DNA from: Fabrea salina | Lineage: Eukaryota; Ciliophora; Heterotrichea; Heterotrichida; Fabreidae | Assembly (NCBI GenBank): GCA_022984795.1 | Contig: JALIHJ010000025.1 | Coordinates: 62,001 to 126,000, forward strand | Direction of reading: 5' to 3' | Length of the DNA stretch: 64,000 bases | In this document: piece by piece, positions 39,401 to 58,154 of the stretch | How positions within the stretch are numbered: the stretch's first letter is position 1 | Layout of the letters: every line of letters starts with the position of its first letter | Position numbers and translations under genes: made by a program | Notes under the pieces: generated by a model | Database searches by the model: none | Told to the model about the DNA's origin: nothing | The model's input: the letters and a program-made list of their open reading frames with translations, nothing else

Positions 39401-42057
39401 TAAGCATTTTGAGAGTGCCTCCTACCAACCGTTCTGAAGACAACTTATCTTCAAAACTCCTTGGCTACATACTTGACACGGTAAAGGTTGTGGACCCAAC
39501 TGGTTCCTCTCAAGAGTACGACTTTTGCCAAAACATTTGCTACTTACTTCAAAGGAACCTTCTTCCTTTCATAGCAGAGGCCTCTAGCCCAGAGCACCGC
39601 CTAGGCGTTATCCAGAAAGTGCTGAGTTTGACTTACGTTTTGCTTCCACACCACTCTGTGTATCATCCTACTTCTTCAACAACTCTTCTTCAAGTTTTAA
39701 CTCGGTTTCAGCTTCAGCCAGGGGAATACTCTTTGCTTAGTCTTTTAGCTAACTTGTTGACTCAAACTAACTCATTCCAGATGTACTCCCAAATCTGTCA
39801 AATCTTGTGTCTCTTGCTAAGCCTTCCTCATCTGCGTGTGTGCTTGGACCTTGAATCACCTACTTCCCAAGAACTCCTAAAAAACTCAGTGGAAGCACTT
39901 CACTCAAAGCTCATTCCTTTTGTGTCGGGGCAGTCTTTTATGCACAAGCACGCTTTAAAGCAAGCTTACAGGTTGTTTATAACAGTTCCTGAGCTCATTA
40001 ACCACTCCTCTTACATGTGGATTTACAAAGCTTGTGAGGACAGAGAAAGCTCCGTTAGAATGATGGGCTGGAATTTGTTTACCAAGAAGTGCCAAGAGGT
40101 TTACTACTTGCACCATTGTGTAGTAGATTCTGCCCTTGACTGCTTGTTTGGCTACAAAGACTGCTTTGGAGTAAAGTCCCAAGCCTGTGGGTTTCTGGTT
40201 AAGGTTACAGAAATGTCTGGGGAAATGGAAGAGGGCTCTAATGACATTTTAAAAGTACTGTACTCTTACGGAGTAGTCAGTAATTCCAAGTCACTGCTTT
40301 ACGAAAACACAGGTCCTTCACCAGCTTACTTTTCGTCTATAATGAACTTGCTTTACAACATGGCTGTGTTAGACACTAAAAAAATATCTGGAATATGCAT
40401 CCAACTAGACATTTGGGATGCATTGGTGAGACTCATAAGGCCTAAAGCACTTAGTGAAAGAGTTTACACAGAACACAGAAAGCCCTGTGCAGCTCTGTGT
40501 GTTTACAGTTTCGACGAGGTGCTTTATGCCTTAATAGCTCTTTTGGACTTTACAGTGCACTTGATGTACGATGTGCAAATTGCAGAGTATTTACTTGAGT
40601 CTACACACATTTTGGCTTACTGCAACGACTGGCTACAGGAACTTGCAGACCATTTTGATGAGCACAAAGAAGCCCTTCACGGGAAAGCAATTTCAAGTGT
40701 AGTTACTTGCATCCACATAGCTTTATACAAAGCCCCTAAAAAGGCCATCCACAGACTAGAGGGGTTTAGTTACGGAGCTATTTCGGACTTGCTAGACGTA
40801 GTAAAAGGCTTAGAAACAAGACTGAGTATTTTGAGGCTAACTACTTGCTTACTAGAAGAGTTCCCTATTGGTGAGGAGTCAGAGCGCATCATACTGCACT
40901 TGTTGGGGTTGTACAAAGAAATCAGGGAAAAAGAAAACCCACTAAAAGAAATCAGCTGTGCTTTAAGTTGCTTTATTTACCGCTCCGAAAGCGCTAAAAA
41001 CGTAGCGATCCTTACTGGCTTTGCTAACGAATTATTTGAGGAAAGCAAGGAACTCATAGCTGCTTTGCAAAACCAAGAAATCCAAAAACGCCAAACATTT
41101 GAAGACTCCAACATAAAGTCTTGTATCAGGTTGCTTTCTATCTTTAGGTTTTGGAGTGCAGGAAGCACTTCAGCCAAGGCACAACTAGCAATCACTCAGT
41201 CTGTGCCAGGACCGCTTATAAAGTTTTTGTTTAACTTATGGAACTTAACTCTCAACAAAGAAAAACTCCACTCTTCTCTATTGCAAACCCTTGCTACACT
41301 TATATCTGAAAGTCCAGAAGCTAAGAAAGCCATGGCCTTAACTCAGTCTAAACAGTCTATTTTAGGACAAATCATTCACTACGTGTCCAGACCCACTACT
41401 GCTGGGGAAAACAACTTTTGGCTATGCCTTAAAATACTAGGAAGCATATGCAGCAGCAAAGAAGCCAGACAACTTTTAATCAAGACCAGGTACCCTCAAG
41501 GCTTAGCTCAGCGTTTAGTTAAAGTTTGGAACGAGTGCAAAGACCCCAATGCTATACCTATTAAGTCTTCTGCAATGATAGAGTTTATGGCTAGCTTTGC
41601 TTTTTACTCAGAAGGACAAAAGGTACTAAGCAATGTGGGGGGGTTAATTGAAGTACTGGTAGAAGTGCTAGACAGGTACTGCAAAACAGGCATGAAATAC
41701 GAAGTAGTTGAAAACTCTTTGCTTCTGCTAAGGAACTTATGCTTCTCAACAAAGGCCCACGTGCTAGCTAACGAACAAAGCTTGCCTTTGCTACTAGCTT
41801 ATATCAGTTCTCCTCAACAAAAGTCCCAACTTAGAGCTTTGGCTTCTTCAGCTTTATGGGCATTGCTTTACCACAACCAAAAAGTAAAAGGTATTTTGAG
41901 CAGAGAACAAGTTCTGAACGAAATCGATCGTGTTTACAAAGAAGTCAACAGAGACATTGACAGAGCCAACCGAAGTCAAAATACAGAAGACCTAGACTCA
42001 CTTAACATGACTTCAGAAAACCTTAACTCAGTACTGAAAATTTGTGTAAATCCTTAA
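36472..42057 (+). CDS. RTTN: Rotatin-like centriole/basal-body protein
   Basis: 1861 residues without introns. The N-terminus carries the rotatin/Ana3 signature (LIKKLGHRIPEVSDRAVKTI, then a helical repeat with LVLDLGGKEFLDAY). The rest is an all-helical ARM/HEAT-like solenoid. Rotatin is needed for centriole maturation and length and for cilia in animals; basal-body assembly is the likely role here. It is shorter than human rotatin (about 2226 residues). Its stop shares TTAA with the convergent kinesin-8 gene. Confidence 0.85.
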   Translation: MEDLIKKLGHRIPEVSDRAVKTINSKLSAKLTSISTLLSFENGILCGLILHWINQRQTEADVQTISAALKILRQAVLEPRGHRLVLDLGGKEFLDAYSKYAPQTLQSSISDIMNALVSPSFQPLEEPKILLKKEEPKTELPQVTRNKPAKKEVKYEDFEKTSIEDPCEFPPVMLLESDEKVLFDLGVTLKYGNPDEILESCEEVQLRVLEDFPADCLLQRTDLILSLTGLVKTATSKGVVSVAYKGITTIGEFLSKLENFSKQVAKPEFRVATYIPKKSLSSQEHLELSYPCLKNEQWEVGTPGPTLSLLAGVELLVTSLPLNEPSLIGASISAWDRALWALPKLLKFPKLVKKLFDSLGESIHLHVQNPNTMQLPESKVLIRSILELGIRIMLMLPVNSIADCLSANSELAKYLSDYFVFQGEDCTQILPYIEAIDPRATKEYQHAQKVSNAIHASLQLNQILAAEKHVPVSSPKMLHNALDFFEKLLAGVEFSSVPTEVVIDLNIYSYILVRDSALEINIEKANELLLAMMSCKLEPVRTNCILKMKEALQDQTELPGVGSGYLRSEVAKQVFFTKKILEHFIYKNKAASELLPLMLETQEEYQALVPYFTFLQAYASSDPELAAIVHFITSHCSQTQPLRFIRDLFSKNPATRSLACKIIQSCSEPEQIQNSYLSAQENLWELSALDPAEFLTEGEELESYQLPSKDEVTLAELQNLISILKSEGLEASLKVASAEQMIVHLLCGKAEEVVDELITISIKLLATKPEDRAKVRLVAKSLQILVVVALNYSSKAAKVYEAGVKFVCSLLPLVFSKYPPVRYYCLYLLYLLVFSYDISRNKFVRSELFCVVPVPSKAQVLVRPVRILEDISAGFLTPFPVQLMQFNYSDECSFLGYWEMIPSSQRVKDYVFSNQTHNLDPGNLLNKWEKALNQAENHTQIIHTVREWSNLVLCSKPVNQSLYRDLLSPSDFFSTLLSILRVPPTNRSEDNLSSKLLGYILDTVKVVDPTGSSQEYDFCQNICYLLQRNLLPFIAEASSPEHRLGVIQKVLSLTYVLLPHHSVYHPTSSTTLLQVLTRFQLQPGEYSLLSLLANLLTQTNSFQMYSQICQILCLLLSLPHLRVCLDLESPTSQELLKNSVEALHSKLIPFVSGQSFMHKHALKQAYRLFITVPELINHSSYMWIYKACEDRESSVRMMGWNLFTKKCQEVYYLHHCVVDSALDCLFGYKDCFGVKSQACGFLVKVTEMSGEMEEGSNDILKVLYSYGVVSNSKSLLYENTGPSPAYFSSIMNLLYNMAVLDTKKISGICIQLDIWDALVRLIRPKALSERVYTEHRKPCAALCVYSFDEVLYALIALLDFTVHLMYDVQIAEYLLESTHILAYCNDWLQELADHFDEHKEALHGKAISSVVTCIHIALYKAPKKAIHRLEGFSYGAISDLLDVVKGLETRLSILRLTTCLLEEFPIGEESERIILHLLGLYKEIREKENPLKEISCALSCFIYRSESAKNVAILTGFANELFEESKELIAALQNQEIQKRQTFEDSNIKSCIRLLSIFRFWSAGSTSAKAQLAITQSVPGPLIKFLFNLWNLTLNKEKLHSSLLQTLATLISESPEAKKAMALTQSKQSILGQIIHYVSRPTTAGENNFWLCLKILGSICSSKEARQLLIKTRYPQGLAQRLVKVWNECKDPNAIPIKSSAMIEFMASFAFYSEGQKVLSNVGGLIEVLVEVLDRYCKTGMKYEVVENSLLLLRNLCFSTKAHVLANEQSLPLLLAYISSPQQKSQLRALASSALWALLYHNQKVKGILSREQVLNEIDRVYKEVNRDIDRANRSQNTEDLDSLNMTSENLNSVLKICVNP

Positions 42058-44229: not shown

Positions 44230-45039
44230 ATGGCGCAATACTTTAGATACGCACAGCTGGTGATGGGTCCTGCAGGTTCGGGCAAGTCTACATACTGCCA
44301 AGTAATCCAACAGCACGGAGACATTATTGGAAGAGGCGTCCAGGTTATGAATTTAGACCCAGCAGCTGAACAATTTAAATACAGGTGTGACATAGATATA
44401 AGGGATCTTATTACTTTGGACGACGTCATGGAAGAAACTGACTTAGGGCCAAACGGAGGCTTGGTCTTTGCTTTAGAGTACTTAATTGAAAACACAGACT
44501 GGCTTAAAGACGAGTTAGACGGACTAGGCGAAGAAGACTACATTCTAATTGACTGTCCTGGCCAAATCGAGCTTTACACACACATGACTGTTATGAGAGA
44601 CTTTGTGAAGTCCCTTCAGAGTTTAGGTTTTAGTGTCTGCGGAGTGTACTGTTTGGACTGCACTTTTCTGACGGACTCCAGCAAATTCATCTCAGCTTCT
44701 TTGATGGCTCTGGCTGCAATGAACCAACTCGAAATACCCCACATCAACGTTCTTACAAAGTGCGACTTAGTTTCGGACAAGTCGCTGATAAACGATATAC
44801 TAGACAAAGACCCTACAGAACTGACCTCAGAACTAGCTACCTCAGCAGTCTCTTCTAGGTTCAAAAAGATAACTGAACACTTAGCTTCAGTGGTGTCAGA
44901 GTTTAACTTAGTGCAATTTTTTCCACTAGACATAAACGACGAAGACAGCATCCGCAACATCACCTACCAAGTAGACTCCAGCATGCAGTACGGAGAGCTC
45001 CAAGAAGTAAAGGCTTCACAAGACATGGAAATTGATTAA
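44230..45039 (+). CDS. GPN3: GPN3 GPN-loop GTPase
   Basis: 269 residues. Motifs: P-loop GPAGSGKST (13-21), NLDPAAE, GPN loop LGPNGGLVF, switch DCPGQIELYTH and G4 TKCD. The N-terminal RYAQLVMGPAGSGKSTYCQV favours GPN3 over GPN1 and GPN2. GPN proteins help assemble and import RNA polymerase II. The stop shares TTAA (45036-45039) with the convergent methyltransferase gene. Confidence 0.92.
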   Translation: MAQYFRYAQLVMGPAGSGKSTYCQVIQQHGDIIGRGVQVMNLDPAAEQFKYRCDIDIRDLITLDDVMEETDLGPNGGLVFALEYLIENTDWLKDELDGLGEEDYILIDCPGQIELYTHMTVMRDFVKSLQSLGFSVCGVYCLDCTFLTDSSKFISASLMALAAMNQLEIPHINVLTKCDLVSDKSLINDILDKDPTELTSELATSAVSSRFKKITEHLASVVSEFNLVQFFPLDINDEDSIRNITYQVDSSMQYGELQEVKASQDMEID

Positions 45040-48000
45040 TTAAGTTTACCTTGGCAATCTATAGAACCACAAAAGCACTCAATTTTTTCTTGCTCCACTT
45101 CAAAGTTGTAGTCGTAAGTGATTTCTTCCCCTTTGTGGATTAACCGCTTTGCAAAAAGCAGTATGTGCTTTTCTCCGTCGATTTCGCAAACTGTAGCTTC
45201 ACAATTAGCTTGACAAGAGTGGTTGATGAACCTAGCTTTGCCTCCTTTTACTGTGGCGTCCACTACTTTTTCAGAGTCCATTCTGAACATGTAGCAGCTT
45301 CCGTCACCTATTCCTTTTTCTTCGTACTCCTTTTCTCTTAAGTCAGCTACTTTGTTCCGGATGATTTCGCCTATGTACTCAACTACAATGTTTCCAGAAG
45401 GGATGTCTACTGAGGTGTAGAGTCCTAGTCCGTGGATCCCCGAAGGCAGAACTTCAAGGTGGGCTAGTTTGTTTTTGTTTTTTTTGTACTTTCTGAAGTC
45501 ACTTACTAAAGAGTTTTCGTCCTTTATTTCTTGTACAAAAGACTCTTGGTAGTTCACGGACTTCTGACTTGTGACAGGCATTGCTTTTTTGGGCTTGGAC
45601 TCTGTGTGTTTGCGGTAGGGTGCAATAGAACTTGCTCCAAAGGGAGAGGGTTCCAGTTTCTTGAGAATATCAAATATGGACTTGGGTTTGGGTTCTTTGG
45701 GCGGCTTGTAGTTCCTAACTTGCGGAATTGGGGGCAAAAAGTTCGAAAGCATAGGGTACCCAAAGAAGTCAGAGGCCGACTTCATTACAAAACTTTCGCC
45801 TTGCTTGAGCATAGGCCAGAGCTCTTCTAAGTTCTGGGAACGCATAAGCTCCTGACCTGGGTCTTGAGGGTGGTTTATCAGACTTGTCGTAAAAGTGCCG
45901 TTTTCCTTTTCGCACTTAACCATGACTCGTTTGCCCCACATCCAGCACCTCCTTATGCTTCTGAATCTTTCGTGTATGCCTTCTTCAGGAATCTCCAAAA
46001 AGATCGCAGAGCCTATTCTGTTGTAGCAGTCCCGCACAAACATTGGCTTTCTGCTGAATTTTTTCCCTTTTGAAACAAACAGTTTTCTGTGGTTGTTCGC
46101 CACAAGGTCTTCGGTTGAAACTGGGTCAGAGTTGGAGAGGCTCTTTGGAACTGAACAGTTATTGCAAATAAGCGACTTGGGCTTCAAAAGTCTAGCATTT
46201 CCTAGCAAAGCACATGGAAAATGATAAGAGTTATGGCACTTCTTGGCAGAACAACAGATAGTAGCACCTAGTTCGCCACAGTCTTTACACTTGGTTTTTT
46301 TCGACTTTGTTAGAGCCACAACAAAGTTCTGCAAGCCTCCTAATTCATCCTCAGTAACTTCAGAACTCCAGTAAGCACAGTTCACGTGCACCCAAATTCC
46401 GTCTTCTACTGGCAGTAGTCTGCCTGGCAACTTGCTTTCTCCAGAGTGTTTGCACAAAGAACAACTTAGCGACAAAAGTCTTTCTTCTTTTGGTTCAAAG
46501 CGGTACAGTACATTGTTGTGGTTATTGAGACAACTGGGCTCTGGAGTCTGTGCTTCTGGCCTGTTTAAGAAGTGGAGGGTGAGTTTTACAATGTTTTCTT
46601 GAAGCCAAGTTTCAAACTTGTCAGCAAAAGCTATGGCAGCAGGGAGTTCTTGCTTAACATAGAGTTCTGCAAGTTGCTCGCTCGAGAGTTCTTGTGTAAG
46701 CACGTCTTGGGGAGTGTCGACCGGTTTGAGGGGCTCAGGTCTAGTTTCTTCAGGCTCGCTTTCTTTGAGTGGAGGCACAAAGTCTGACTCGGACCCTAAC
46801 CAGTAACACCTTTCGTAAAGCATTTGGTCTGAGTCCCTTGGAAGACTCATGTTCAAGTTGATTTCTGTGAAGTCCCAAACTTTTTCCTCATGAACAAACA
46901 TGCCTGTGCTTGAAATAGGAGTTACGAACTCTTCCACTACTTCAATTTGGTCGGTGGGGTTGTAAATGATGTTTAGTGAGTTCATCAAACAAGAAGTGTC
47001 CCACTCCACGTCGTATACTTTTAAAGTGGAGTTGAACCTGTGGAGTTTTACAATGGGGTAGGTCACACTAGGGACTTCACTGCGTCTTAGACCTTCTACC
47101 ATAGGCAAACTTGTAGTTCTGTAAAAAGGTTTTCTAGAAGTTTTGGTTTTAACTATTTCTACACCTCTTCCTTGAAAAAGTTCCCTTATCTCTGGAGAGT
47201 TAGCTAGGAATTCAGAGTTGTCAGCTAAAAAAGCCTCAGCTAACTCTTTAGCTAGTTCTTCGTCAATTCCAAACCTTCTTTCTATGCAGTCTTTTGTAAG
47301 TTGTTTGTAAACGCTTGACTGAGAAATCAAACTCATCAAGTACTGAATCTTTTCAAGAGTGAGCTTTTCAGCCTGTGCGTAGTTCATAGAATTAAGAGTG
47401 CATTTAGAACAGCACCCCTTCCAGTCCTCAAAGCACTCCTTGTGGAAGTAAAACTCACACGGTCTGCAGAAGTGCATTTCCTGGGGCTCTTCAACTTGGT
47501 TGTAAGGAGAGCACCAGTCTTTTTCGCACTCAGGACAGTACTTTTTGTTCTCTAGGACCCAAGCACACTTGTAACACAACTCAAAATCTGTGTAAAAGTT
47601 TTCTTTAGTCGGTTCAAAGCCTAACTCGTGGTAGTTAGAGGCTCCACATCTTTTGCACTCAAAACACTTGTCGCACACCCAGTTACTCAGATGGAACTGT
47701 CCTGTAAAACTAGGCCACAAACAGTTAACATGGTACCCTCTAGAGCACTTACTGCAGTCTATCATAGAAAAAGCGTCCTTAATGTTTTTGCAAACTTCGC
47801 AAACTCTGCAGTCTTTGCAATGCCAGTGTTTAGAGTTAGCGTCTACACAGAAGCTGTGGAAAGCCCTTCCGCAGGTTAAACAAGCTTTGAAATAAGGCTC
47901 TTGGATGAAACTTCCACACACAAAGCACTGCTCTTCCAAGCAAAGTTCACAGTCAGTGTAAAATATTGCCAAAGGAGTTGGGTAAAAAGAGAGCGTGACC

Positions 48001-50096
48001 TTAGGTCCCATGTAAGGCTGGATGTCCTTTTTGTTTATAACTATATTGAGGGACTCCTTAACAGGTGAAAAAGACAACTCAGGAAGGAGACTTAACAAGT
48101 TCTGCGAAAAGTCGTATTCCATAGGCTCTTCGAGTTCTGAAGGAAGTGGCAGATCTAAGTCAGGTATGTTCTTTGCTGAGCTTTTTGGCTTCTTTGTAGG
48201 AACAGACACTTCTGCCTTTTTTCTTTTGTGTGGAAAAAGCTTGGTTTGAAGGAGTTCTTGTCCTTCTTGAAGAAGCTTTTCAGCAGTTTGGTACCCGTTT
48301 GTGTTGGCTTTGAAGAAGCACATAGCGTTGTCGCATATAAGTTCGAAGTGGTCCCAGAGCAGGTCTTTGTTTTTGGAGTAAACTCCTTCTTGTGCGTTTT
48401 CAAGCATTTTTTCAAAGTACATTTGGTTCTTGATTACTTTGTTGTAGTAAGGGTCGTCTACTTTCTTCAGAAAAAAGTTGTTTTTTTCTAGTTCCATTAG
48501 CTGCATCACTACCTCAGACATTTCTTTGTTTTGGTTGGCTTCTCTGCACACAGGGCAATAGTACTTCATGTTTTGGTTGTTAATTAGCATGCCCCACATT
48601 TCAGTGTTTATTCCTGTGTCGCAGTTTATGTGCACCCACCTCCGGCACTTGTCACACTCTATCATGGCAGGGTCATCTTTTCTGCTGAGTCGTTGTTCGG
48701 TTCTGCTTTGTCTTCCTTTTTTTGAGAACCAAAACCTAAAACACACTGGACAGTACTCTCCTTTTTTCCATTTCATGTCACAGCTTGTGCACTTAGTAAT
48801 TGTTTCGTTCCACTTAACGTTGCCTTCAGTTGCTTTAATTCCACAGTGCTCGCATACTGCACAGAGTTCACAAATCCACCTTTTAGTTGGAGAAGGCGCT
48901 ACACTTAAGTCCAAGCACCTTTCGTGAAAGTTGTTGTTGCAAACGCTGCACTTAACCATTTTCCCTTGAATGCCAAGGCAGTTTTCGCACCTAGGACAGT
49001 CAGGACACCGCCAAACTCCCCTTAAGCCAACTAAGGAAGTGACGCCTTCTAAGCACTGTGTGTGGTAGCACACACCACAACTGTCACACTGTCTGAACTC
49101 CAGTATGTCCAAAATGTATCCACAGCACTTGCACCTGTTTTCTTTGCGAAAGATTTTGTCTTCAGTAGGAGTAGAAGGAAAAGGAAGTTTGTAGTTAAGA
49201 AAGAAGTTTTTGTACTGCTTCCGTAAGTCAGACCCTGGAGTCAAGTTCAGCAAAAGCGACACTGGAACTGGTGGTTCTGTGAGTTGACAAACTAAGGTTT
49301 GGGGTTCGTAGTTTATCCACTTGAATTGCTTTTGGTTGTAAATAAAAAGCTTTTCCGTTACAGGGTGCTTTCTGAGCAAAACAACTTTTTGTTTGTAGTT
49401 TTTGATTGTGACAAACCAAAAGTAGTACTTTTCAATTTCTAAGTCAGGGATTTGGAAGTCGCGATTCGCGTTTAGCCAGGTTTGGTACGCAAGTTTGAGC
49501 TGTAAAGCTTGTGAATTAGCTCCGTAGTACTCAGTTAAGTCTCCTAAGTACACTGACTCAATTTCTCCTTCGTCCAAACCTTTGACAAGGATCTGCTGAT
49601 CACTCTGAGGACCTGGAATGTACCACAGAATCTCTACAGGTTTGCCCTGATACTCCATGAGTCTCCCGCCTAAAAAAGCCTCAACTTCTCTCAAGTCAAC
49701 CCAGTTAGGCCCAATCTTGTACTTAGAGGGAACTAGGTCTTCTCCGGAGACTGCTTCAAAATCTTCTATCAAATCAACTTTCCAGGTATCTTCTAGCTTC
49801 ACCCACACTCGTCGGGAAGCTGCTTGTGACCCGTAAACACAGCCTTCTAAGTAGTTAAGTTTGACTTTCTCTTCAGGGGGACTTGGAGGGACCACTGCTT
49901 CTGGTTTGCGCTTTTTGACAGGATGCGGCGATTTTTTAGGAGGTCTTTTTTGGGGTTTTGGAGGAGTTGGAGGGGGTTCAGTTGCTGTGCGTGTGGCATG
50001 GCGTGTGAGTTTTTTACCTGCTTGGAGTAACTTGTAGTACTCTAGAGTTGACAAGTTTCCTAGCTCTGGAAACTCTATTTGCCGACCTCTTGACAT
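45036..50096 (-). CDS. Trithorax/MLL-type histone H3K4 methyltransferase
   Basis: 1686 residues. The order is: basic proline-rich N-terminus; PHD cluster 1 (about 322-520; CKCCGY..., CENCLG, CEHCG, ECDKCRRWVH); a bromodomain-like helical stretch (about 545-620); PHD cluster 2 (about 715-830 and beyond); an extended PHD (about 1210-1325; CSLCKHSGESK, then WVHVNCAYWSSEV); an F/Y-rich-like region; SET and post-SET (about 1545-1686; HGLGLYTSVDIPSGN, then RFINHSCQANCE, then YDYNFE and CFCGS.DCQG). The catalytic NHS and tyrosine are present, so H3K4 methylation is likely. Confidence 0.92.
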   Translation of the reverse strand: MSRGRQIEFPELGNLSTLEYYKLLQAGKKLTRHATRTATEPPPTPPKPQKRPPKKSPHPVKKRKPEAVVPPSPPEEKVKLNYLEGCVYGSQAASRRVWVKLEDTWKVDLIEDFEAVSGEDLVPSKYKIGPNWVDLREVEAFLGGRLMEYQGKPVEILWYIPGPQSDQQILVKGLDEGEIESVYLGDLTEYYGANSQALQLKLAYQTWLNANRDFQIPDLEIEKYYFWFVTIKNYKQKVVLLRKHPVTEKLFIYNQKQFKWINYEPQTLVCQLTEPPVPVSLLLNLTPGSDLRKQYKNFFLNYKLPFPSTPTEDKIFRKENRCKCCGYILDILEFRQCDSCGVCYHTQCLEGVTSLVGLRGVWRCPDCPRCENCLGIQGKMVKCSVCNNNFHERCLDLSVAPSPTKRWICELCAVCEHCGIKATEGNVKWNETITKCTSCDMKWKKGEYCPVCFRFWFSKKGRQSRTEQRLSRKDDPAMIECDKCRRWVHINCDTGINTEMWGMLINNQNMKYYCPVCREANQNKEMSEVVMQLMELEKNNFFLKKVDDPYYNKVIKNQMYFEKMLENAQEGVYSKNKDLLWDHFELICDNAMCFFKANTNGYQTAEKLLQEGQELLQTKLFPHKRKKAEVSVPTKKPKSSAKNIPDLDLPLPSELEEPMEYDFSQNLLSLLPELSFSPVKESLNIVINKKDIQPYMGPKVTLSFYPTPLAIFYTDCELCLEEQCFVCGSFIQEPYFKACLTCGRAFHSFCVDANSKHWHCKDCRVCEVCKNIKDAFSMIDCSKCSRGYHVNCLWPSFTGQFHLSNWVCDKCFECKRCGASNYHELGFEPTKENFYTDFELCYKCAWVLENKKYCPECEKDWCSPYNQVEEPQEMHFCRPCEFYFHKECFEDWKGCCSKCTLNSMNYAQAEKLTLEKIQYLMSLISQSSVYKQLTKDCIERRFGIDEELAKELAEAFLADNSEFLANSPEIRELFQGRGVEIVKTKTSRKPFYRTTSLPMVEGLRRSEVPSVTYPIVKLHRFNSTLKVYDVEWDTSCLMNSLNIIYNPTDQIEVVEEFVTPISSTGMFVHEEKVWDFTEINLNMSLPRDSDQMLYERCYWLGSESDFVPPLKESEPEETRPEPLKPVDTPQDVLTQELSSEQLAELYVKQELPAAIAFADKFETWLQENIVKLTLHFLNRPEAQTPEPSCLNNHNNVLYRFEPKEERLLSLSCSLCKHSGESKLPGRLLPVEDGIWVHVNCAYWSSEVTEDELGGLQNFVVALTKSKKTKCKDCGELGATICCSAKKCHNSYHFPCALLGNARLLKPKSLICNNCSVPKSLSNSDPVSTEDLVANNHRKLFVSKGKKFSRKPMFVRDCYNRIGSAIFLEIPEEGIHERFRSIRRCWMWGKRVMVKCEKENGTFTTSLINHPQDPGQELMRSQNLEELWPMLKQGESFVMKSASDFFGYPMLSNFLPPIPQVRNYKPPKEPKPKSIFDILKKLEPSPFGASSIAPYRKHTESKPKKAMPVTSQKSVNYQESFVQEIKDENSLVSDFRKYKKNKNKLAHLEVLPSGIHGLGLYTSVDIPSGNIVVEYIGEIIRNKVADLREKEYEEKGIGDGSCYMFRMDSEKVVDATVKGGKARFINHSCQANCEATVCEIDGEKHILLFAKRLIHKGEEITYDYNFEVEQEKIECFCGSIDCQGKLN

Positions 50097-50851: not shown

Positions 50852-52525
50852 TTAACTTTTACCGATATGTTCTGTGGACATTGAGCATTCGTGCCCGCAT
50901 CCAGAAGGGCACTTGGTGTTGTCTTGGAACCACTTTTTAAGGTGCAGAAGGTGACCTCCATGACTGCACCCTTGGCACCAGGAGTATAGTCCTCTTACTT
51001 GCTTGTTGCACACTGCACATAAAGAAATGTTTTTGCACTTCTCACAAAAGCTTTCTTCGCAGTCTTTTCCACAAGGACACTTACAGAAGATTTCTACGTT
51101 CGACTGGGGGATCTCAAGTTTAGTGGCTTCTTTGTGGATTTGGAGTTGTCTGAGAAGTTCTGAGTATTCTTGGATAGGACCTTCTGTTTTGAAGGCTGAA
51201 GAAATGCAAGCAGCAGTTTGTACATCGCCTAGTTCGGAGTAGTACTCTACAGTTTCTTTAAGTGACTCCTGAATTATACTGGATAGCCACAAGTTTGCAG
51301 GTTCCCGGATACTTGCTAGTTTGCTCAGTGCTTTCCAAAGCTCCTTTTTGTTTTTAGAAACTTGAGAGTTGCTTTGGCAGAGTTGCTGAGTGTCTTTGGA
51401 TTTAAATTGGTAGTTTTTAGCTAAGTTTTGAATCTGCAACTTATGCTGGCCTAAGGAGTGAATTTGTGTAGAAGCATGGTGCTTGGCTCCTGAGTTTATT
51501 GCTGAAATAAACTCTTGCGGGTTCCTTGACGAAAGACTGTCGAAATGGACTGCAACTTGGTTAAGAGGACTTACAGCTATTGCTTGGTTTGGCACAAACT
51601 TATACGGTCTGTAAGCGTTTTGAGGAGAGTGCTTGATAACATTCCCGTCGCCTCCACATGTCACAATGCTTTCACCCACTAGTATAAAGTCAGTTATAGG
51701 ATGGGCATGGCCCTTAAATACATAGTGCGGTAGCCAGGGTTCCTCTAAGTGCCAGGTGTACAAGTTATTGTCATGAGTATGGGATGCAGAGGCAATTTGG
51801 TTAGGGGACTGAGGAACCCACTTGATTCTACTTACAGGTTCAGGAGCCTGAACTTTACTAATCATCTCGTAAGTTTCAGTGTCCCACACTTTAATGTTTT
51901 TGTCGCTGCCTCCTGAAGCCAGTACGTTGTGCTTTTCAGGGTGCCAGTCAATGCTTAAAGCATTTCTTTTGTGAGCTGTTATCCTGGCAAAGCAGTTGTT
52001 AGCTTTTCTCCTGTCCCACAGCTGGACACACCCTGAATCGTAACTAGCTGCAAAAATATCGTTCATAAAGGGCGAAAAAGCTACGTCCCGGGCGCCTTCG
52101 CTGTTGCCTCGCATACTAAAAAGAGCTGACCCGGGAACTCTGCGGTCCCACAGCCGTAGTATTCCGTCTTGGCCTGCTGACAAAAACAAGTCAGGCTCAG
52201 TCCAGTGCCATTTTACTCTGTTGACTACTTTGGTGTGGCCTTTAAAAACTTGCTCGAGTTTGTTAGCACCAACTCGGTTAAGGTTCCACAAAACCACAAA
52301 GGAGTTTTTGGCAGCCGATAAAATCCAGTCTTGCTCGGTAAGGTGCCAAGCTAAGTCTTGGGTTGAGTAGTTTAGGTTGGGTTTTCCGACTCGCAGACTC
52401 CTTTTTTCTTCTAAATGGTTAACATTGATGATTTTAAGTATTTCACGGCCCCCACAGATCACACTGCTTTTGTCAGGAGAAGAGGACATTGAGTTTATTG
52501 AGTACTTTAAAGGCAGCACTTCCAT
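50852..52525 (-). CDS. WDR24: WDR24-like GATOR2 subunit
   Basis: 557 residues. WD40 repeats fill about 10-310 (QDGILRLWDRRVP, GCVQLWDRRKANNC, GSDKNIKVWDTETYEM). The C-terminus has a cysteine-rich RING-like zinc domain: CAVCNKQVRGLYSWCQGCSH, then GGHLLHLKKWF and CPSGCGHEC, which is diagnostic for WDR24/Sea2. WDR24 belongs to GATOR2, which relays amino-acid signals to TORC1 at the lysosome. The C2 gene's stop codon touches this gene's start with no gap. Confidence 0.88.
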   Translation of the reverse strand: MEVLPLKYSINSMSSSPDKSSVICGGREILKIINVNHLEEKRSLRVGKPNLNYSTQDLAWHLTEQDWILSAAKNSFVVLWNLNRVGANKLEQVFKGHTKVVNRVKWHWTEPDLFLSAGQDGILRLWDRRVPGSALFSMRGNSEGARDVAFSPFMNDIFAASYDSGCVQLWDRRKANNCFARITAHKRNALSIDWHPEKHNVLASGGSDKNIKVWDTETYEMISKVQAPEPVSRIKWVPQSPNQIASASHTHDNNLYTWHLEEPWLPHYVFKGHAHPITDFILVGESIVTCGGDGNVIKHSPQNAYRPYKFVPNQAIAVSPLNQVAVHFDSLSSRNPQEFISAINSGAKHHASTQIHSLGQHKLQIQNLAKNYQFKSKDTQQLCQSNSQVSKNKKELWKALSKLASIREPANLWLSSIIQESLKETVEYYSELGDVQTAACISSAFKTEGPIQEYSELLRQLQIHKEATKLEIPQSNVEIFCKCPCGKDCEESFCEKCKNISLCAVCNKQVRGLYSWCQGCSHGGHLLHLKKWFQDNTKCPSGCGHECSMSTEHIGKS

Positions 52526-53053
52526 TTAAGGTTTATTACTTAAAAATGTTGTGTTAGGGGTGCTATAAGCACTGTATGGGTAAAAGGACCCTAGAGGAAC
52601 AGCGCCTGTGCCAGGCGGCAAAGGATTTTTGGTTCGAGGTTTTAGAGGCTTTTTGGGTTTTTGGAGTTGTTTTGTGTGGTTTTTGTCAGGTTTCCACTGA
52701 ATGTCTAGTTCTAAGTGCCCTACTTGTTTATCTTTGTGAAACAAAAACACCCTTTGGGACAACCCAGAAACTAAGTTGTCTAAGTTAATCTTAGCTGAGG
52801 CTATTAACTTATCTGACAGTATAGTTTGGTGGTTCCAAATGTCTATGTACATTTCCCTTTGGTAGGAATGCTTCCTCAGTACTAGTGTTTCATTCCATTG
52901 AGGAGTTTTACCTCCGCGGCTGTGGTAGGAAGTTCTCATTACTTGGGAGCCTAACTTTACAATTGCGTAGGGACTCATCTTCCCTACTGTCTTTTTATTT
53001 CTGAAGAGTTTTGCTTCTACTGGCTTCACAAGTAAGTTTCCCGATTTGTCCAT
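52526..53053 (-). CDS. C2-domain protein
   Basis: 175 residues. A C2 domain fills about 5-120 (EAKLFRNKKTVGKMSPYAIVKLG, in two blocks, then GKTPQWNETLVL and MYIDIWNH.TILSDKLI), with a short basic/proline tail. C2 domains bind phospholipids or proteins, often with calcium. Not all calcium aspartates are evident. TAA at 52526-52528 abuts the next same-strand ATG. Confidence 0.8.
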   Translation of the reverse strand: MDKSGNLLVKPVEAKLFRNKKTVGKMSPYAIVKLGSQVMRTSYHSRGGKTPQWNETLVLRKHSYQREMYIDIWNHQTILSDKLIASAKINLDNLVSGLSQRVFLFHKDKQVGHLELDIQWKPDKNHTKQLQKPKKPLKPRTKNPLPPGTGAVPLGSFYPYSAYSTPNTTFLSNKP

Positions 53054-53066
53054 AATGTTTCTATAA

Positions 53067-54434
53067 ATGACAACTGAATGGCAAAGAGTCCAACCTATCT
53101 TTATTGACCACTCTCAGGAATTGGACTCCATCTACAACTCTTCTACGAAGAACACCCACTCCAGAACCCCAAGTGAGTTGTTTCTCAGTTTTATTCCTTT
53201 TGAAACTTTAGCATGTATTGCAGAAGCCACTAATTGCAACTACTTCAAGACCACTCAGAACAAAACAGTTTCCAAAAGAAACAAGCACTACAAACCACTT
53301 TCAGAGAGTGACATTAGAAGATACATGGGAGTGACTATTTTCATGGGGATAAACAGGCTGCCTTCTTACAAAATGCATTGGAGTTCTCAAATGACCACTA
53401 GTCCCTGCATTACAAGTGCTATGACCTACAACGAGTTTGTTAGAATTGGAACTTGGCTTAAGTTGTCGCACAAATCCTTTCCTAAAGACATGCAGAAAAT
53501 TGAAATACTAGCTGAGTCTTTGCAGAAAACTATCAAAGATCTTGCTCCAGGTACTAGTTACTACTGTATTGACGAATCAGTTATTGCTTTTAAAGGAAGG
53601 CACAAACTTAAACAGTACCTTCCTATGAAGCCTAACAAATGGGGATTCAAGGTGTTTTTGCTCTGTAACTCACTGTCAGGTTACGTCCACAAATTTTCAA
53701 TATTCACAGGCGGAGAAAAGTTCAAGCCCTTCAGAATCACCAAAGAACTAACTAAGGACTTAGAAGGAGTTCACTTAGCTACTGACAACTGGTACTCCTC
53801 TGTAAAGCTTTTAGAAGAGTTAAAAGCACAGGGTATTTTGTGCACCTGCACTATAAAAAAGTCCGCAAGGGAGTTTCCTCCTGACTACTCTTCTGTGTGC
53901 AAAACTCTGAAGCACAAAGAGTTCTGTTTTTGGCAAAAAAAAGGACTTTTGCTAGTGGCCTATAAAGACAAAGCACTAGTGAACTGCATTACTACACACA
54001 GCAATTCACCCACTATAGTCAATAAAAACGGAACCTCCAAACCAGAGTGCATAGTTATTTACAACCAAGTAATGAAAGGAGTGGATCAGTTCGATCAAAA
54101 CATGAGTTACTACTTGTACTCACACAGGTTTTCTAAGTGGTGGAAAAACTGCATGATATACTTGATAGAAATAGCAATATACAACTCTTATGTTCTTTAC
54201 AAGGGCTCCAACTCAGTTTCTTACCTTCAGTTTAGAATTGAACTTGCTTACCAACTTGCCAAGTCTACTTCTGTTAAAGAAACCATAGTTACTAAACACA
54301 AAATGGTTTTTTCAAGCAAAAAGAAAAAATGCCAACTTTGCAAAAAAAGAGCTAAAGACTCCTCAACCCAGTACACTTGCCAGGAGTGCCAAGTTGCTTT
54401 GCACAAAAAGTGCTTTGAAGACTACCATAGTTAA
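53067..54434 (+). CDS. PiggyBac-type transposase, probably domesticated (PiggyMac-like)
   Basis: 455 residues, single open frame. The DDE transposase core of piggyBac is seen: D169 (CIDESVIAFKGRH), D240 (ATDNWYSS), D340 (KGVDQFDQN), so all three catalytic aspartates are present. Residues 422-454 form a cysteine-rich finger (CQLC, CQEC, HKKC, H). Neighbours lie 13 and 0 bases away, so there is no room for terminal inverted repeats. In ciliates PiggyBac-derived proteins cut internal eliminated sequences during nuclear development; that role is inferred here. It is likely a host gene rather than a mobile element. Confidence 0.88.
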   Translation: MTTEWQRVQPIFIDHSQELDSIYNSSTKNTHSRTPSELFLSFIPFETLACIAEATNCNYFKTTQNKTVSKRNKHYKPLSESDIRRYMGVTIFMGINRLPSYKMHWSSQMTTSPCITSAMTYNEFVRIGTWLKLSHKSFPKDMQKIEILAESLQKTIKDLAPGTSYYCIDESVIAFKGRHKLKQYLPMKPNKWGFKVFLLCNSLSGYVHKFSIFTGGEKFKPFRITKELTKDLEGVHLATDNWYSSVKLLEELKAQGILCTCTIKKSAREFPPDYSSVCKTLKHKEFCFWQKKGLLLVAYKDKALVNCITTHSNSPTIVNKNGTSKPECIVIYNQVMKGVDQFDQNMSYYLYSHRFSKWWKNCMIYLIEIAIYNSYVLYKGSNSVSYLQFRIELAYQLAKSTSVKETIVTKHKMVFSSKKKKCQLCKKRAKDSSTQYTCQECQVALHKKCFEDYHS

Positions 54435-55811
54435 TTAAAATAGCTTCTTCATAGAACTCAAAACCAGTCTGACAACTGTAAAGTTCCACAAAGTTTTAGA
54501 CTTGTTTGTAAGAACTGAATCCAACCCTAGCGTATTAAGGTGGCTATTAGGAAGGGTGTTAGCTATTCGATCTAAACCTAAACCTCCTATTTTGGCGTCC
54601 CACAAATAAAGTTCAGTCAGCTTGGAGTCTGGAATGGTTCTTACAATAGCTTCAGCTCCGCCTTTTTGAATTGAGTTTTTTCTAAGTCTTAGCATGATGA
54701 GTTGAGAACTAGGAATAGCTTTAGCAATGGCTTGGGCTCCAGCATCTGCAATTTGGTTGTTTTCTAGCAAAAGGTAGGATATTTCTGAGTTACGCAGAGC
54801 ACCTGCCAAAGCAATTGCTCCTAAGTCCCCTATAGAGTTTTGTCCTAAGTCTAAGTAAATAAGTTTGGAGTTAGGAAGAAACTCAGCTACTCTTTGTGCA
54901 CCTTCTGAACCCAATGAGTTGTTGTACAAGTAAAGTGACCTCAGTTTGGAGTTAGGCAGTGCCTTTCCCAGAGCTTTTGCTCCTTTGGCACTTAAAGAGT
55001 TGCTTGACAAAATCAGCATAGTAAGTGAAGACCCAGGAAGAGCTTTTCCTAGTGCTTTTGCTCCTTTGTCACTTATTTCGTTGAGCCACAAGTTAAGTTT
55101 CGAAAGTTTGCACTTAGGCAGCGCTTGAGCAATGCTTTCTGCACCTTCGTCACCAATTCCGTTTGCTCCTAAATGAAGTTCAGTTAACTTTGAGTAAGGA
55201 AGAGCTAAAGAAAGCACCTTTGCTGAGTCCACTCCTAAAAAACTTCCTTGTGCAATTAAGAGACTCATAGGTTTACCTTCAGTGCCAATTTGGTTCAGGA
55301 AACTAGAGATCTGCTTGCTCTTTGAAACTGCTTTTCTGTAGTTGTTTTTAATTCCGTGAATCATAACTTTCAGTTTAAGTTTTTCAAGTAAGTCGAACTT
55401 GTCTGACCTAAATTTTACCACTCTGGCTGTTTTGTCGTAAACTTGGCCAGGCTTCAGCCCTTCGAACTTGTCCAGAAGGCAACTTAGTCTAGTTTCGCTT
55501 TCGCTTAAGCTCGTTCTGATTCTTTCGCACTCAATTTGCACTGAGTTTAGGTTTTCTAACTTGTCAGCACAGATTTCTTTTATGAAGTTAATGTATACTT
55601 GGGCTCTTTCTTGTATGTTTTCTTGGAGGTCTTTGGACTCCTTTTGGATCTTATTCAGGGCTCTTATAATTAAGTTGTGTGGGAGTTTTTCTAGTTTGTG
55701 GTCAAAGTGCTGGCTACTTTTTGCTAGGCATCCACAAATGTAAACCCCTGCGCAACTGCACTTGTACTCAACTCCTAAGCACCCTCCTTGCATACAGGAC
55801 TCTTCTGTCAT
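54435..55811 (-). CDS. Cys-rich, coiled-coil, RNI-type LRR protein
   Basis: 458 residues. The N-terminus has several cysteines with histidines (CMQGGCLGVEYKCSCAG, then CGC, then HFDHK), a possible zinc module. A coiled coil follows (about 55-150), then about eight 28-residue RNI/NOD-type leucine-rich repeats (for example GAKALGKALPNSKLRSLYLY). Such LRRs bind proteins; a signalling or assembly role is possible. The stop TTA directly follows the transposase TAA, with no gap. Confidence 0.75.
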   Translation of the reverse strand: MTEESCMQGGCLGVEYKCSCAGVYICGCLAKSSQHFDHKLEKLPHNLIIRALNKIQKESKDLQENIQERAQVYINFIKEICADKLENLNSVQIECERIRTSLSESETRLSCLLDKFEGLKPGQVYDKTARVVKFRSDKFDLLEKLKLKVMIHGIKNNYRKAVSKSKQISSFLNQIGTEGKPMSLLIAQGSFLGVDSAKVLSLALPYSKLTELHLGANGIGDEGAESIAQALPKCKLSKLNLWLNEISDKGAKALGKALPGSSLTMLILSSNSLSAKGAKALGKALPNSKLRSLYLYNNSLGSEGAQRVAEFLPNSKLIYLDLGQNSIGDLGAIALAGALRNSEISYLLLENNQIADAGAQAIAKAIPSSQLIMLRLRKNSIQKGGAEAIVRTIPDSKLTELYLWDAKIGGLGLDRIANTLPNSHLNTLGLDSVLTNKSKTLWNFTVVRLVLSSMKKLF

Positions 55812-55822
55812 ATTTTATTAAA

Positions 55823-57061
55823 TCATATAAAGTCTTCGTCGGAGGACTCGCAGTCATTAAATTCACAGGGCAACTGGACGTTTTCGTACTCGCCTAGAAT
55901 CTCTTCTAGGTTAGCTTCTGCTTCAAGGAACTCTAGTTCTTCCATTCCTTCTTGCAAGTACCAGTGCATGTAAGCTTTTTTTGTATGCATGACTCTAAAT
56001 TGACTACTTATTCTTTCAAAGACTTTTTTAATTCCTGTAGAGTTGGCTACTAAAGTTGCACTATTTTCTCCGGTTGCAACTTTACAAACAGAAGTGTGCA
56101 TGTTGTGCGGAATCCACTCTGCAAAGTTAGCTGAGTGCTTATCAGCAGCTGACCTTACATGGCTTTCAACCTCCGCTGCTGAAAAGTCGCCTCTGAAGAT
56201 TCCAGCAGCAAAAAGGAACTGACTGTACTTAGAGTCAAAGTCACACAAAGGCGATGTGAAGAGTTGCGATGTAAGCTCTTCAAGACTGTGAGTTTTAGGA
56301 CAAGCAATAGGGGAGTAGCTAGTAGTTAAGAAGTGCAGTCTTGGAAAAGGAATAAGGTTCAAGGAGAGTTTCCTCAAGTCGTTGTTTAGTGTACTGGGGA
56401 ATCTGAAACTGCAAGTTAGTCCGCTCATAACTGCACTTGCTACTTGGTTTATATTTTTATAAGAAACTGTTTGCATGCGTTTGTGACAAATATTAAATAA
56501 AGCTTGGTTGTCTAGAGAAACTACGCTATCTGAGTTTTCAATTAACTGGTGCGTAGCTAACACTGCGTTGTAAGGTTCCACTACAATGTCTGAAACCTTT
56601 TTTGAAGGAAAAACCGAAAAGGTTTGAAGTAGTTTGTCAGGGTACTCCTCTCTAACTTTACTCATAATGAGGGTTCCCAAACCAGACCCAGTTCCTCCTC
56701 CTAAACTGTGAGCCAACTGGAAACTCTGCATCGACTCACAGTGCTCTGCTTGCTTGCGCAGGGACTCCATAATATCCTCTATGACTTCCATTCCTTCAGT
56801 GTAGTACCCTTTAGCCCAATTATTACTAGCAGTGCGGTTTGCGCACACGTAAGACTCCTTGTCAAATACTGACCCCAGAGGTCCCGCGCGCAAGGAGTCA
56901 AGTGGACTAGAGTCCAAATCCACAAGTACTGACCTTGGAGTGTAAGAGTTAAAGTACACTGAGTCTGGAGTTTCTGAGTGCTCAGAAATCAACTGTTGCC
57001 AAAACTCCTTACCTAGCTGGACTCCGCATTGCCCTACTTGGACAAGTATAATTTCTCTCAT
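55823..57061 (-). CDS. Divergent beta-tubulin paralogue
   Basis: 412 residues from MREIILVQVGQCG (start 57061, chosen for the MREI start and the 7-base divergent gap). GTP-binding GGGTGSG and NNWAKG are present, as are FRFPSTLNNDLRKL and EWIPHNMHT. It is about 30 residues shorter than normal. The H1-S2 loop lacks about 20 residues, and the M-loop (lateral contact) is about 5 residues shorter. The C-terminal tail is LPCEFNDCESSDEDFI rather than the usual EGEF/poly-Glu tail. It could make special microtubules; the function is unknown. Confidence 0.85.
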   Translation of the reverse strand: MREIILVQVGQCGVQLGKEFWQQLISEHSETPDSVYFNSYTPRSVLVDLDSSPLDSLRAGPLGSVFDKESYVCANRTASNNWAKGYYTEGMEVIEDIMESLRKQAEHCESMQSFQLAHSLGGGTGSGLGTLIMSKVREEYPDKLLQTFSVFPSKKVSDIVVEPYNAVLATHQLIENSDSVVSLDNQALFNICHKRMQTVSYKNINQVASAVMSGLTCSFRFPSTLNNDLRKLSLNLIPFPRLHFLTTSYSPIACPKTHSLEELTSQLFTSPLCDFDSKYSQFLFAAGIFRGDFSAAEVESHVRSAADKHSANFAEWIPHNMHTSVCKVATGENSATLVANSTGIKKVFERISSQFRVMHTKKAYMHWYLQEGMEELEFLEAEANLEEILGEYENVQLPCEFNDCESSDEDFI

Positions 57062-57068: not shown

Positions 57069-58154
57069 ATGTATAATATCAGAGCCAAGCAAAAAGAAAA
57101 GTTGAATGTAGACTACTTAGCAAAACCCCAGATAGTTTTTAGCACAGATACTTCATTTAACCAAAAGCAACTCAAGCAAATCTGCATCCAAGGCCAGGTA
57201 CTGTTTGAGTTCTTTGCTAGAAAGCACGAAAAAACAGTGGCTTTTTGGTACAGAAGCGGGGTTGTATACATGACTGAGTCTTTAGTAGGTTATGTTGACA
57301 AAGCTCTTCATTTGAAAAAAAGCAGAAATCAAGTCCTTAACATAAGTTTGCACGGAGAGTCTCTGTACTTGCTAGAGCAAAACGCAGTTTGCAAGTTTTT
57401 AAATGAAAAGTTGACCGAAAAGATCAAAGGCACTTTTAAATTTCCCACGAAAAAGGTTATTGAAGTAGAAAACTTATACAAAGTCTACTCTGAAAAGGAC
57501 TTGAGAGCTTGCTTTTCCTTTGCAGAGACCTCTGAAAACTCTTTTTTAGTTTCAAACCAAAAACTATCTGTTATAAAACACAAAGAAATCATCCAAACTA
57601 TTTTTGTGGAAGAAAGAATAAGGGGGTTCCTACCTAAACACCCACTCACTATAGAAGGAACTCTTTTTGACTTCTGTGTAGAAAAGGACCTACCTCTGAA
57701 CTCCCCTGAGCTGGACCAGTCTCCAGAGTTCAAGCCAGACATGAAAACTCTGCATGCTATTGAAAACTCAGACTTTGTTTCAACAGCAATCGACCTCCAC
57801 TGGAAAAACCACTTTTCTCAGGACTTAGAAGAGTACTTAAACACTCAGTGGAGCTTAGAGCCTCTAGACAGGTCTTACTTAAGTTCACACGAGTTTTACG
57901 AAAAACTCTACGACTACCTAGAAAACTTCCTGCCTTTAACAGTCCAGGGGTTCTTCATGACCAACCCTCAAAACTTAATTTTTTTACAAGAAGCTCTTAG
58001 AGAACAGGAATCCAAGTTATACGCAGACGGCCACTTGCACCCTAAGAAGTCTATTACTTCACTCATTTCTGAAAGCATTCCCCCAGTGTCTCCTTTCGAC
58101 ACTCAACAACAAAAAAGAATTAGAGCCCACTTTTCAAGCCACTCTAACAGTTAA
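57069..58154 (+). CDS. Unknown 361-residue protein
   Basis: No signal peptide or membrane segment. A mixed alpha/beta composition and several KL/FP clusters (FKFPTKKVIEVENLYKVYSE, YEKLYDYLENFLPL) are visible. No family recognised. The stop shares TTAA (58151-58154) with the convergent MTFMT gene, and it is divergent from the tubulin paralogue. Confidence 0.65.
   Translation: MYNIRAKQKEKLNVDYLAKPQIVFSTDTSFNQKQLKQICIQGQVLFEFFARKHEKTVAFWYRSGVVYMTESLVGYVDKALHLKKSRNQVLNISLHGESLYLLEQNAVCKFLNEKLTEKIKGTFKFPTKKVIEVENLYKVYSEKDLRACFSFAETSENSFLVSNQKLSVIKHKEIIQTIFVEERIRGFLPKHPLTIEGTLFDFCVEKDLPLNSPELDQSPEFKPDMKTLHAIENSDFVSTAIDLHWKNHFSQDLEEYLNTQWSLEPLDRSYLSSHEFYEKLYDYLENFLPLTVQGFFMTNPQNLIFLQEALREQESKLYADGHLHPKKSITSLISESIPPVSPFDTQQQKRIRAHFSSHSNS

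Follow-up and report, generated by a model that had tools for sequence, protein, structure and literature searches.

We consider it probable that the gene at positions 53067..54434 (plus strand) of the window, a 64,000-nucleotide stretch of Fabrea salina DNA, belongs to a set of three old, domesticated piggyBac genes in a macronuclear heterotrich genome and encodes a PiggyMac-type excisase. A literature search returned no paper linking Fabrea salina with piggyBac; the Fabrea genome paper (PMC9004412) lay outside the reach of that search.

Genome setting and gene packing

The window comprises bases 62001-126000 of a contig of 285,652 bases (C21), in an assembly of 18,328,466 bases and 103 contigs. 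To our knowledge, the genome of Fabrea salina is the smallest known among ciliates. Both ends of C21 and both ends of C19, the four contig ends examined, bear CCCTAACA telomere repeats, and CCCTAACA is also the telomere repeat of Blepharisma (PMC9942806). By its telomeres the assembly resembles the macronuclear genome of a heterotrich. The GC content of the window is 39-44% per 2-kb step, and the standard stops of 44 window ORFs are 37 TAA, 5 TAG and 2 TGA. Assembly size, GC content and stop codons, like the telomeres, fit Fabrea salina.

Packing was measured on 44 window ORFs, each at least 100 aa long and picked mechanically. These span 93% of its length; the median of the 43 gaps is 13 bases, and 24 gaps are no longer than this. 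Next to the piggyBac gene lie a divergent C2-domain gene 13 bases away (52526..53053, minus strand; PF00168, 2.7e-14) and a convergent leucine-rich-repeat gene 0 bases away (54435..55811, minus strand; PF13516, 1.4e-25). Both gaps are as reported in an earlier reading made from the sequence alone (the sequence-only reading), which held that packing so tight favours domestication. That argument is weak: since packing of this kind is ordinary in the window, it adds little.

At positions 50852-53067 one minus-strand ORF directly follows another with 0 bases separating them, and the second begins 13 bases from the divergent start of the transposase gene, an arrangement that leaves hardly any space for separate promoters. 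At window positions 42054-42057, 45036-45039 and 58151-58154, convergent ORF pairs overlap by exactly four bases, a TTAA that holds both stops; the same four-base TTAA overlap occurs at the end of the paralogue A described below (L004:6013-6016). The window also contains a tubulin-family gene of 412 aa (55823-57061; PF00091, 4.3e-58; PF03953, 4.3e-20). A 1686-aa protein encoded in one open frame at 45036-50096 combines PHD fingers, a bromodomain and a SET domain, and could be described as trithorax-like.

A full-length piggyBac transposase with three aligned aspartates

The window gene is an uninterrupted open frame of 455 codons plus stop in the ORF list, giving a protein of 455 aa. Residues 34-375 match PF13843 (DDE_Tnp_1_7) at 9.1e-63, with 213 bits against a cut-off of 22.4; the protein covers positions 1-349 of the 349 of the profile, and the match is therefore full-length. 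Among solved structures, phmmer placed piggyBat best (9c0f, 1e-34) and also returned moth piggyBac (6x67, 3e-26). The profile and phmmer matches together bear out the earlier identification of a piggyBac transposase.

The three aspartates that the sequence-only reading had singled out as the piggyBac core also hold up. In a five-sequence alignment D169 (codon 53571..53573), D240 (53784..53786) and D340 (54084..54086, all plus strand) align with D268, D346 and D447 of T. ni piggyBac, respectively, which constitute the active site of the moth enzyme (PMC7351741). D343 is the equivalent of piggyBac D450 and is likewise kept. Y332 and N333 (codons 54060..54065, plus strand) map in the alignment to Y439 and N440, through which piggyBac touches the hairpin and A-2 of TTAA (PMC7351741).

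The piggyBac DNA-contact residues Y283, K290, V414, Y439 and N440 are identical in the window protein and in both of its Fabrea paralogues. At other contacts the window protein has Lys in place of R275 and R372, Arg at R376, Ala in place of K375 and Cys in place of L416. This last residue, part of the TTAA pocket, is substituted in all three aligned Fabrea proteins (C, S and A). Because all three proteins keep Y439, N440 and V414, with which piggyBac holds the hairpin and reaches the inner TA, and have smaller residues at L416, the alignment would be compatible with a TA-centred cut with some relaxation of the TTAA pocket. We do not infer an excision-only activity in which integration is lost, since the changes at R372 (K, K and R) are conservative, and K375, whose counterpart is Ala in the window gene and Arg in A, falls on a gap not just in B but in piggyBat as well.

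Hidden in-frame introns of 15 bases (GTA...AG, the only length and start sought) yielded two candidates in the window gene. Both are unlikely because they fall in ungapped aligned stretches, one of them covering the first catalytic motif. When the structure of the window protein was predicted by itself, the model had a mean pLDDT of 36 and was discarded.

Two further homologues in the assembly

The sequence-only reading described a single host gene. This does not hold for the 18.3-Mb assembly, in which a whole-assembly PF13843 search (E <= 10) found three loci and a protein search with paralogue B found the same three. Paralogue A (471 aa; G000:C21:12600-14015) shares the contig of the window gene at a distance of approximately 101 kb, whereas paralogue B (506 aa) lies at G000:C19:86747-88267. 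Pairwise identities fall between 35 and 39% (34.7% for window-A, 35.3% for window-B and 38.9% for A-B). Further copies could be hidden in stretches outside the reach of the search, in any missing part of the assembly, in the germline genome or as very degenerate copies. When relatives were sought with the three-protein alignment, 45 pattern matches in viral_contigs and 96 in genome_contigs were obtained, and tblastn confirmed 0 of them.

The catalytic triad is complete in all three homologues found, as are the equivalents of D343 and of the hairpin contacts. Of these homologues, the window gene has diverged most by both bit score and branch length: its PF13843 score is 214 bits compared with 265 and 263 for A and B, and its branch in the five-sequence tree measures 1.03 compared with 0.69 and 0.56. 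This tree (363 columns) pairs the window gene with B (81.8/73) despite A and B sharing the highest identity, and separates piggyBat and piggyBac from the three Fabrea genes with a support of 96.2/94. With these three as its sole ciliate sequences, the tree weakly suggests that they share an origin.

Because the window gene is the most divergent copy, another copy may be the main excisase. We give somewhat less than an even chance to this variant of our preferred reading, with which it is compatible, and in which A or B would be the main excisase and the window gene an accessory or specialised protein that has kept its catalytic residues. The higher profile scores of A and B and their closer mutual identity are consistent with it, as is the requirement in Paramecium for several PgmLs alongside Pgm (PMC6143343). 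The accessory PgmLs of Paramecium and BPgmLs of Blepharisma, however, are described as having incomplete triads, whereas that of the window gene is complete, and the modestly supported tree joins the window gene, not A, to B.

ORFs with a short Cys-rich N-terminus, similar by eye, were seen at window 54435-55811, L004:6013-7362 and L005:8802-9689. They adjoin the window gene and A and lie approximately 3.5 kb from B, and perhaps belong to a large family. IS1595-type transposase domains occur at G000:C21:254693-255067 and G000:C30:80594-80971; the open frames that contain them are 395 and 376 aa long. These genes have possibly been domesticated too, and one of them shares its contig with two of the piggyBac genes.

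A domesticated gene rather than a mobile element

The sequence-only reading had reasoned from gene spacing that terminal inverted repeats were lacking. A direct search agrees, with nothing beyond control at any of the three genes. Within 2.5 kb of the window gene, none of the 18 x 18 pairs of TTAA sites was followed by an inverted 12-mer match when up to 3 mismatches were allowed. At the same distance, paralogue A gave 0 among 13 x 18 pairs, and paralogue B gave 1 among 31 x 19, as did its control orientation. TTAA-anchored inverted 16-mers with at most 5 mismatches numbered 0 within 2.5 kb of the three genes. Exact inverted matches between flanks stayed below 11 bases at the window gene and at A and reached 11 bases at B; the longest in the direct-orientation controls were 10-12. 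Missing terminal repeats alone are not decisive, because the five germline-limited piggyBac homologues of Blepharisma, as described in PMC9942806, are likewise without flanking terminal repeats.

Multiple near-identical copies elsewhere, which the sequence-only reading had named as evidence that would tell against domestication, were sought by a DNA search of the assembly. Besides the window gene itself, the search returned two short segments of a single paralogue (73% over 126 bases and 95% over 22 bases), and no near-identical copy. At fourfold sites coding for the same residue, third-position identity between paralogues is 0.24-0.39 (37, 46 and 50 sites), an agreement near random, and second-position identity is 0.59-0.61. 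The frames of 455-506 residues are open; shuffled frames carry approximately 28-34 stops. Near-saturated silent sites in open frames therefore indicate that the three genes are old and have been under long purifying selection. The window gene has a codon-usage gain of 0.163, while A and B have 0.079 and 0.118. The mean over 18 other window genes is 0.126 (sd 0.030, range 0.063-0.178), placing all three piggyBac genes inside the range of host genes.

Domestication of the piggyBac gene is well supported, because no terminal repeats were found, its paralogues are of low identity and wedged between genes, the silent sites are near saturation and its codon usage is that of host genes. It is very improbable that the gene instead belongs to a recently inserted piggyBac transposon, whether still mobile or recently dead. 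The intact catalytic core would be expected of such an element, but it would have to be reconciled with TTAA-anchored inverted repeats that do not exceed control, the lack of near-identical copies, the near-saturation of the paralogues at silent sites, and gaps to neighbouring genes of 13/0 bases for the window gene, 100/-4 for A and 105/31 for B. PiggyBat, the closest solved structure, comes from a bat transposon with terminal repeats, unlike the three Fabrea genes.

The C-terminal finger

The C-terminus of the window protein contains a Cys-rich C1-like domain (54297..54431, plus strand), recognized by PF03107 and by comparison with the piggyBat CRD. Residues 415-449 match a C1-type finger (C1_2, PF03107, 1.4e-6). 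The Cys-rich finger that the sequence-only reading placed at residues 422-454 is real; its ligands are C422, C425, C438, C441, H446, C449 and H454, and H411, upstream of the finger, is an eighth candidate ligand.

Guerineau et al. (PMC8086355) contrast the PHD-like finger of piggyBac with the Pgm type, in which a His lies upstream and the fold is C1-like. The finger of the window gene is of the Pgm type, with H411, C422xxC425, C438xxC441, H446, C449 and the final H454. Paramecium Pgm is likewise a domesticated piggyBac protein with a DDD triad and a C1-like CRD with upstream and final His (PMC6143343, PMC8086355). At the fifth conserved ligand the Pgm motif has a Cys (PMC8086355), but the window protein has a His (H446) and so does piggyBat; the order C-C-C-C-H-C-H is common to the window and piggyBat CRDs. 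All three Fabrea proteins end in a Cys/His tail, and in paralogue A the upstream His is absent from the last 75 residues. In Blepharisma, Singh et al. (PMC9942806) describe the CRD of 3/8 proteins as resembling that of human PGBD4 and of an armyworm element more than those of Paramecium and Tetrahymena.

The ligand order shared with piggyBat, and the Pgm-like finger arrangement that PGBD2-4 also have (PMC8086355), speak for a further alternative, namely that the window gene encodes a domesticated piggyBac protein that serves the host in a different way, for instance through the DNA or chromatin binding suggested for some PGBD proteins, and removes no germline DNA. The divergence of the window copy from its paralogues is compatible with such a role. 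So is the example of human PGBD4, which keeps its DDD and has no known function (PMC6143343); because of PGBD4, an intact triad is not proof of excisase activity. We nevertheless regard another host role as unlikely. The triad, D343 and the hairpin-contact residues are kept in all three paralogues, whereas PGBD1, 2 and 3 are described as having no intact triad (PMC6143343), and the full-triad ciliate relatives described are excisases or candidates for that function.

Comparison with known ciliate excisases

The PiggyMac-like role proposed in the sequence-only reading is plausible for a gene in a heterotrich macronuclear-type genome, Blepharisma having a PiggyMac candidate of its own (PMC9942806). 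BPgm and the BPgm-likes of Blepharisma stoltei are, like the Fabrea genes, heterotrich macronuclear piggyBac homologues with a DDE_Tnp_1_7 domain and no reported terminal repeats, and BPgm has a complete DDD triad as the Fabrea genes do (PMC9942806). Compared by description, 1/8 of the Blepharisma homologues has a complete triad and 3/3 of those in Fabrea (PMC9942806). None of Paramecium PgmL1-5 is described as having a complete triad (PMC6143343), unlike the three Fabrea genes, and complete triads in Paramecium number 1/10 by the count of Singh et al., who list ten paralogues in one passage and nine in another (PMC9942806). At 455 aa the window protein is short; the Paramecium PgmLs are given as 578-1085 aa. 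Tetrahymena Tpb1 and Tpb2 are both domesticated piggyBac proteins with DDD, as in Fabrea (PMC9942806), and several complete-triad paralogues in one ciliate are thus not unprecedented. Tpb2 excises intergenic sequences imprecisely, and Tpb7 and Lia5 are reported without the triad (PMC6143343), whereas the Fabrea proteins are known from sequence alone.

In Paramecium, Pgm makes double-strand breaks centred on flanking TAs through its DDD while complexed with Ku, and end joining follows (PMC6143343). For Fabrea, we envisage that, as a new macronucleus forms after sex, a complex of piggyBac-derived proteins would be brought to germline-limited DNA via small-RNA or chromatin cues. The C1-like finger may contact chromatin, as extrapolated from Paramecium and Tetrahymena, and the DDD site would cut staggered double-strand breaks at a TA-centred site. 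Ku-dependent end joining would then close the gap. This scheme presumes developmental expression, DNA cleavage, a suitable substrate and joint action of the three proteins.

The assembly contains domain matches to Piwi (5), Ku (2) and the Spo11-type TP6A_N (1), and 6 RNase III domains in 3 ORFs. This set is in keeping with sex, small RNAs and end joining in the organism. It is no demonstration of DNA elimination, because Piwi, Dicer, Ku and Spo11 are found in many eukaryotes. Other matches in the assembly are IS1595-type (2), DDE_3 (1) and reverse transcriptase (5, of which 4 are over the cut-off); a search for MULE domains gave 0 matches.

Implications for ciliate genome editing

The active-looking triad, put forward in the sequence-only reading as notable for a heterotrich, is present, but such a triad was already known from Blepharisma BPgm. 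What is new in Fabrea is that all three homologues found keep it, which is mildly surprising. Paramecium and Blepharisma are each described as having a single catalytically complete paralogue, an arrangement of one active and many dead proteins. It is possible, though we hold this only tentatively and think it rather doubtful, that this heterotrich excises germline DNA with three competent piggyBac proteins and no dead subunits, a state that would stand before or beside the one-active-many-dead arrangement and in which the excisases would be split by class of eliminated DNA.

PiggyBac excisases have been proposed as ancestral to ciliate genome editing (PMC9942806). A minimal heterotrich genome in which three paralogues are intact would offer a test of whether the catalytic loss seen in PiggyMac-like subunits is old or repeated, and the comparison with Fabrea also bears on whether several active excisases can divide the work.
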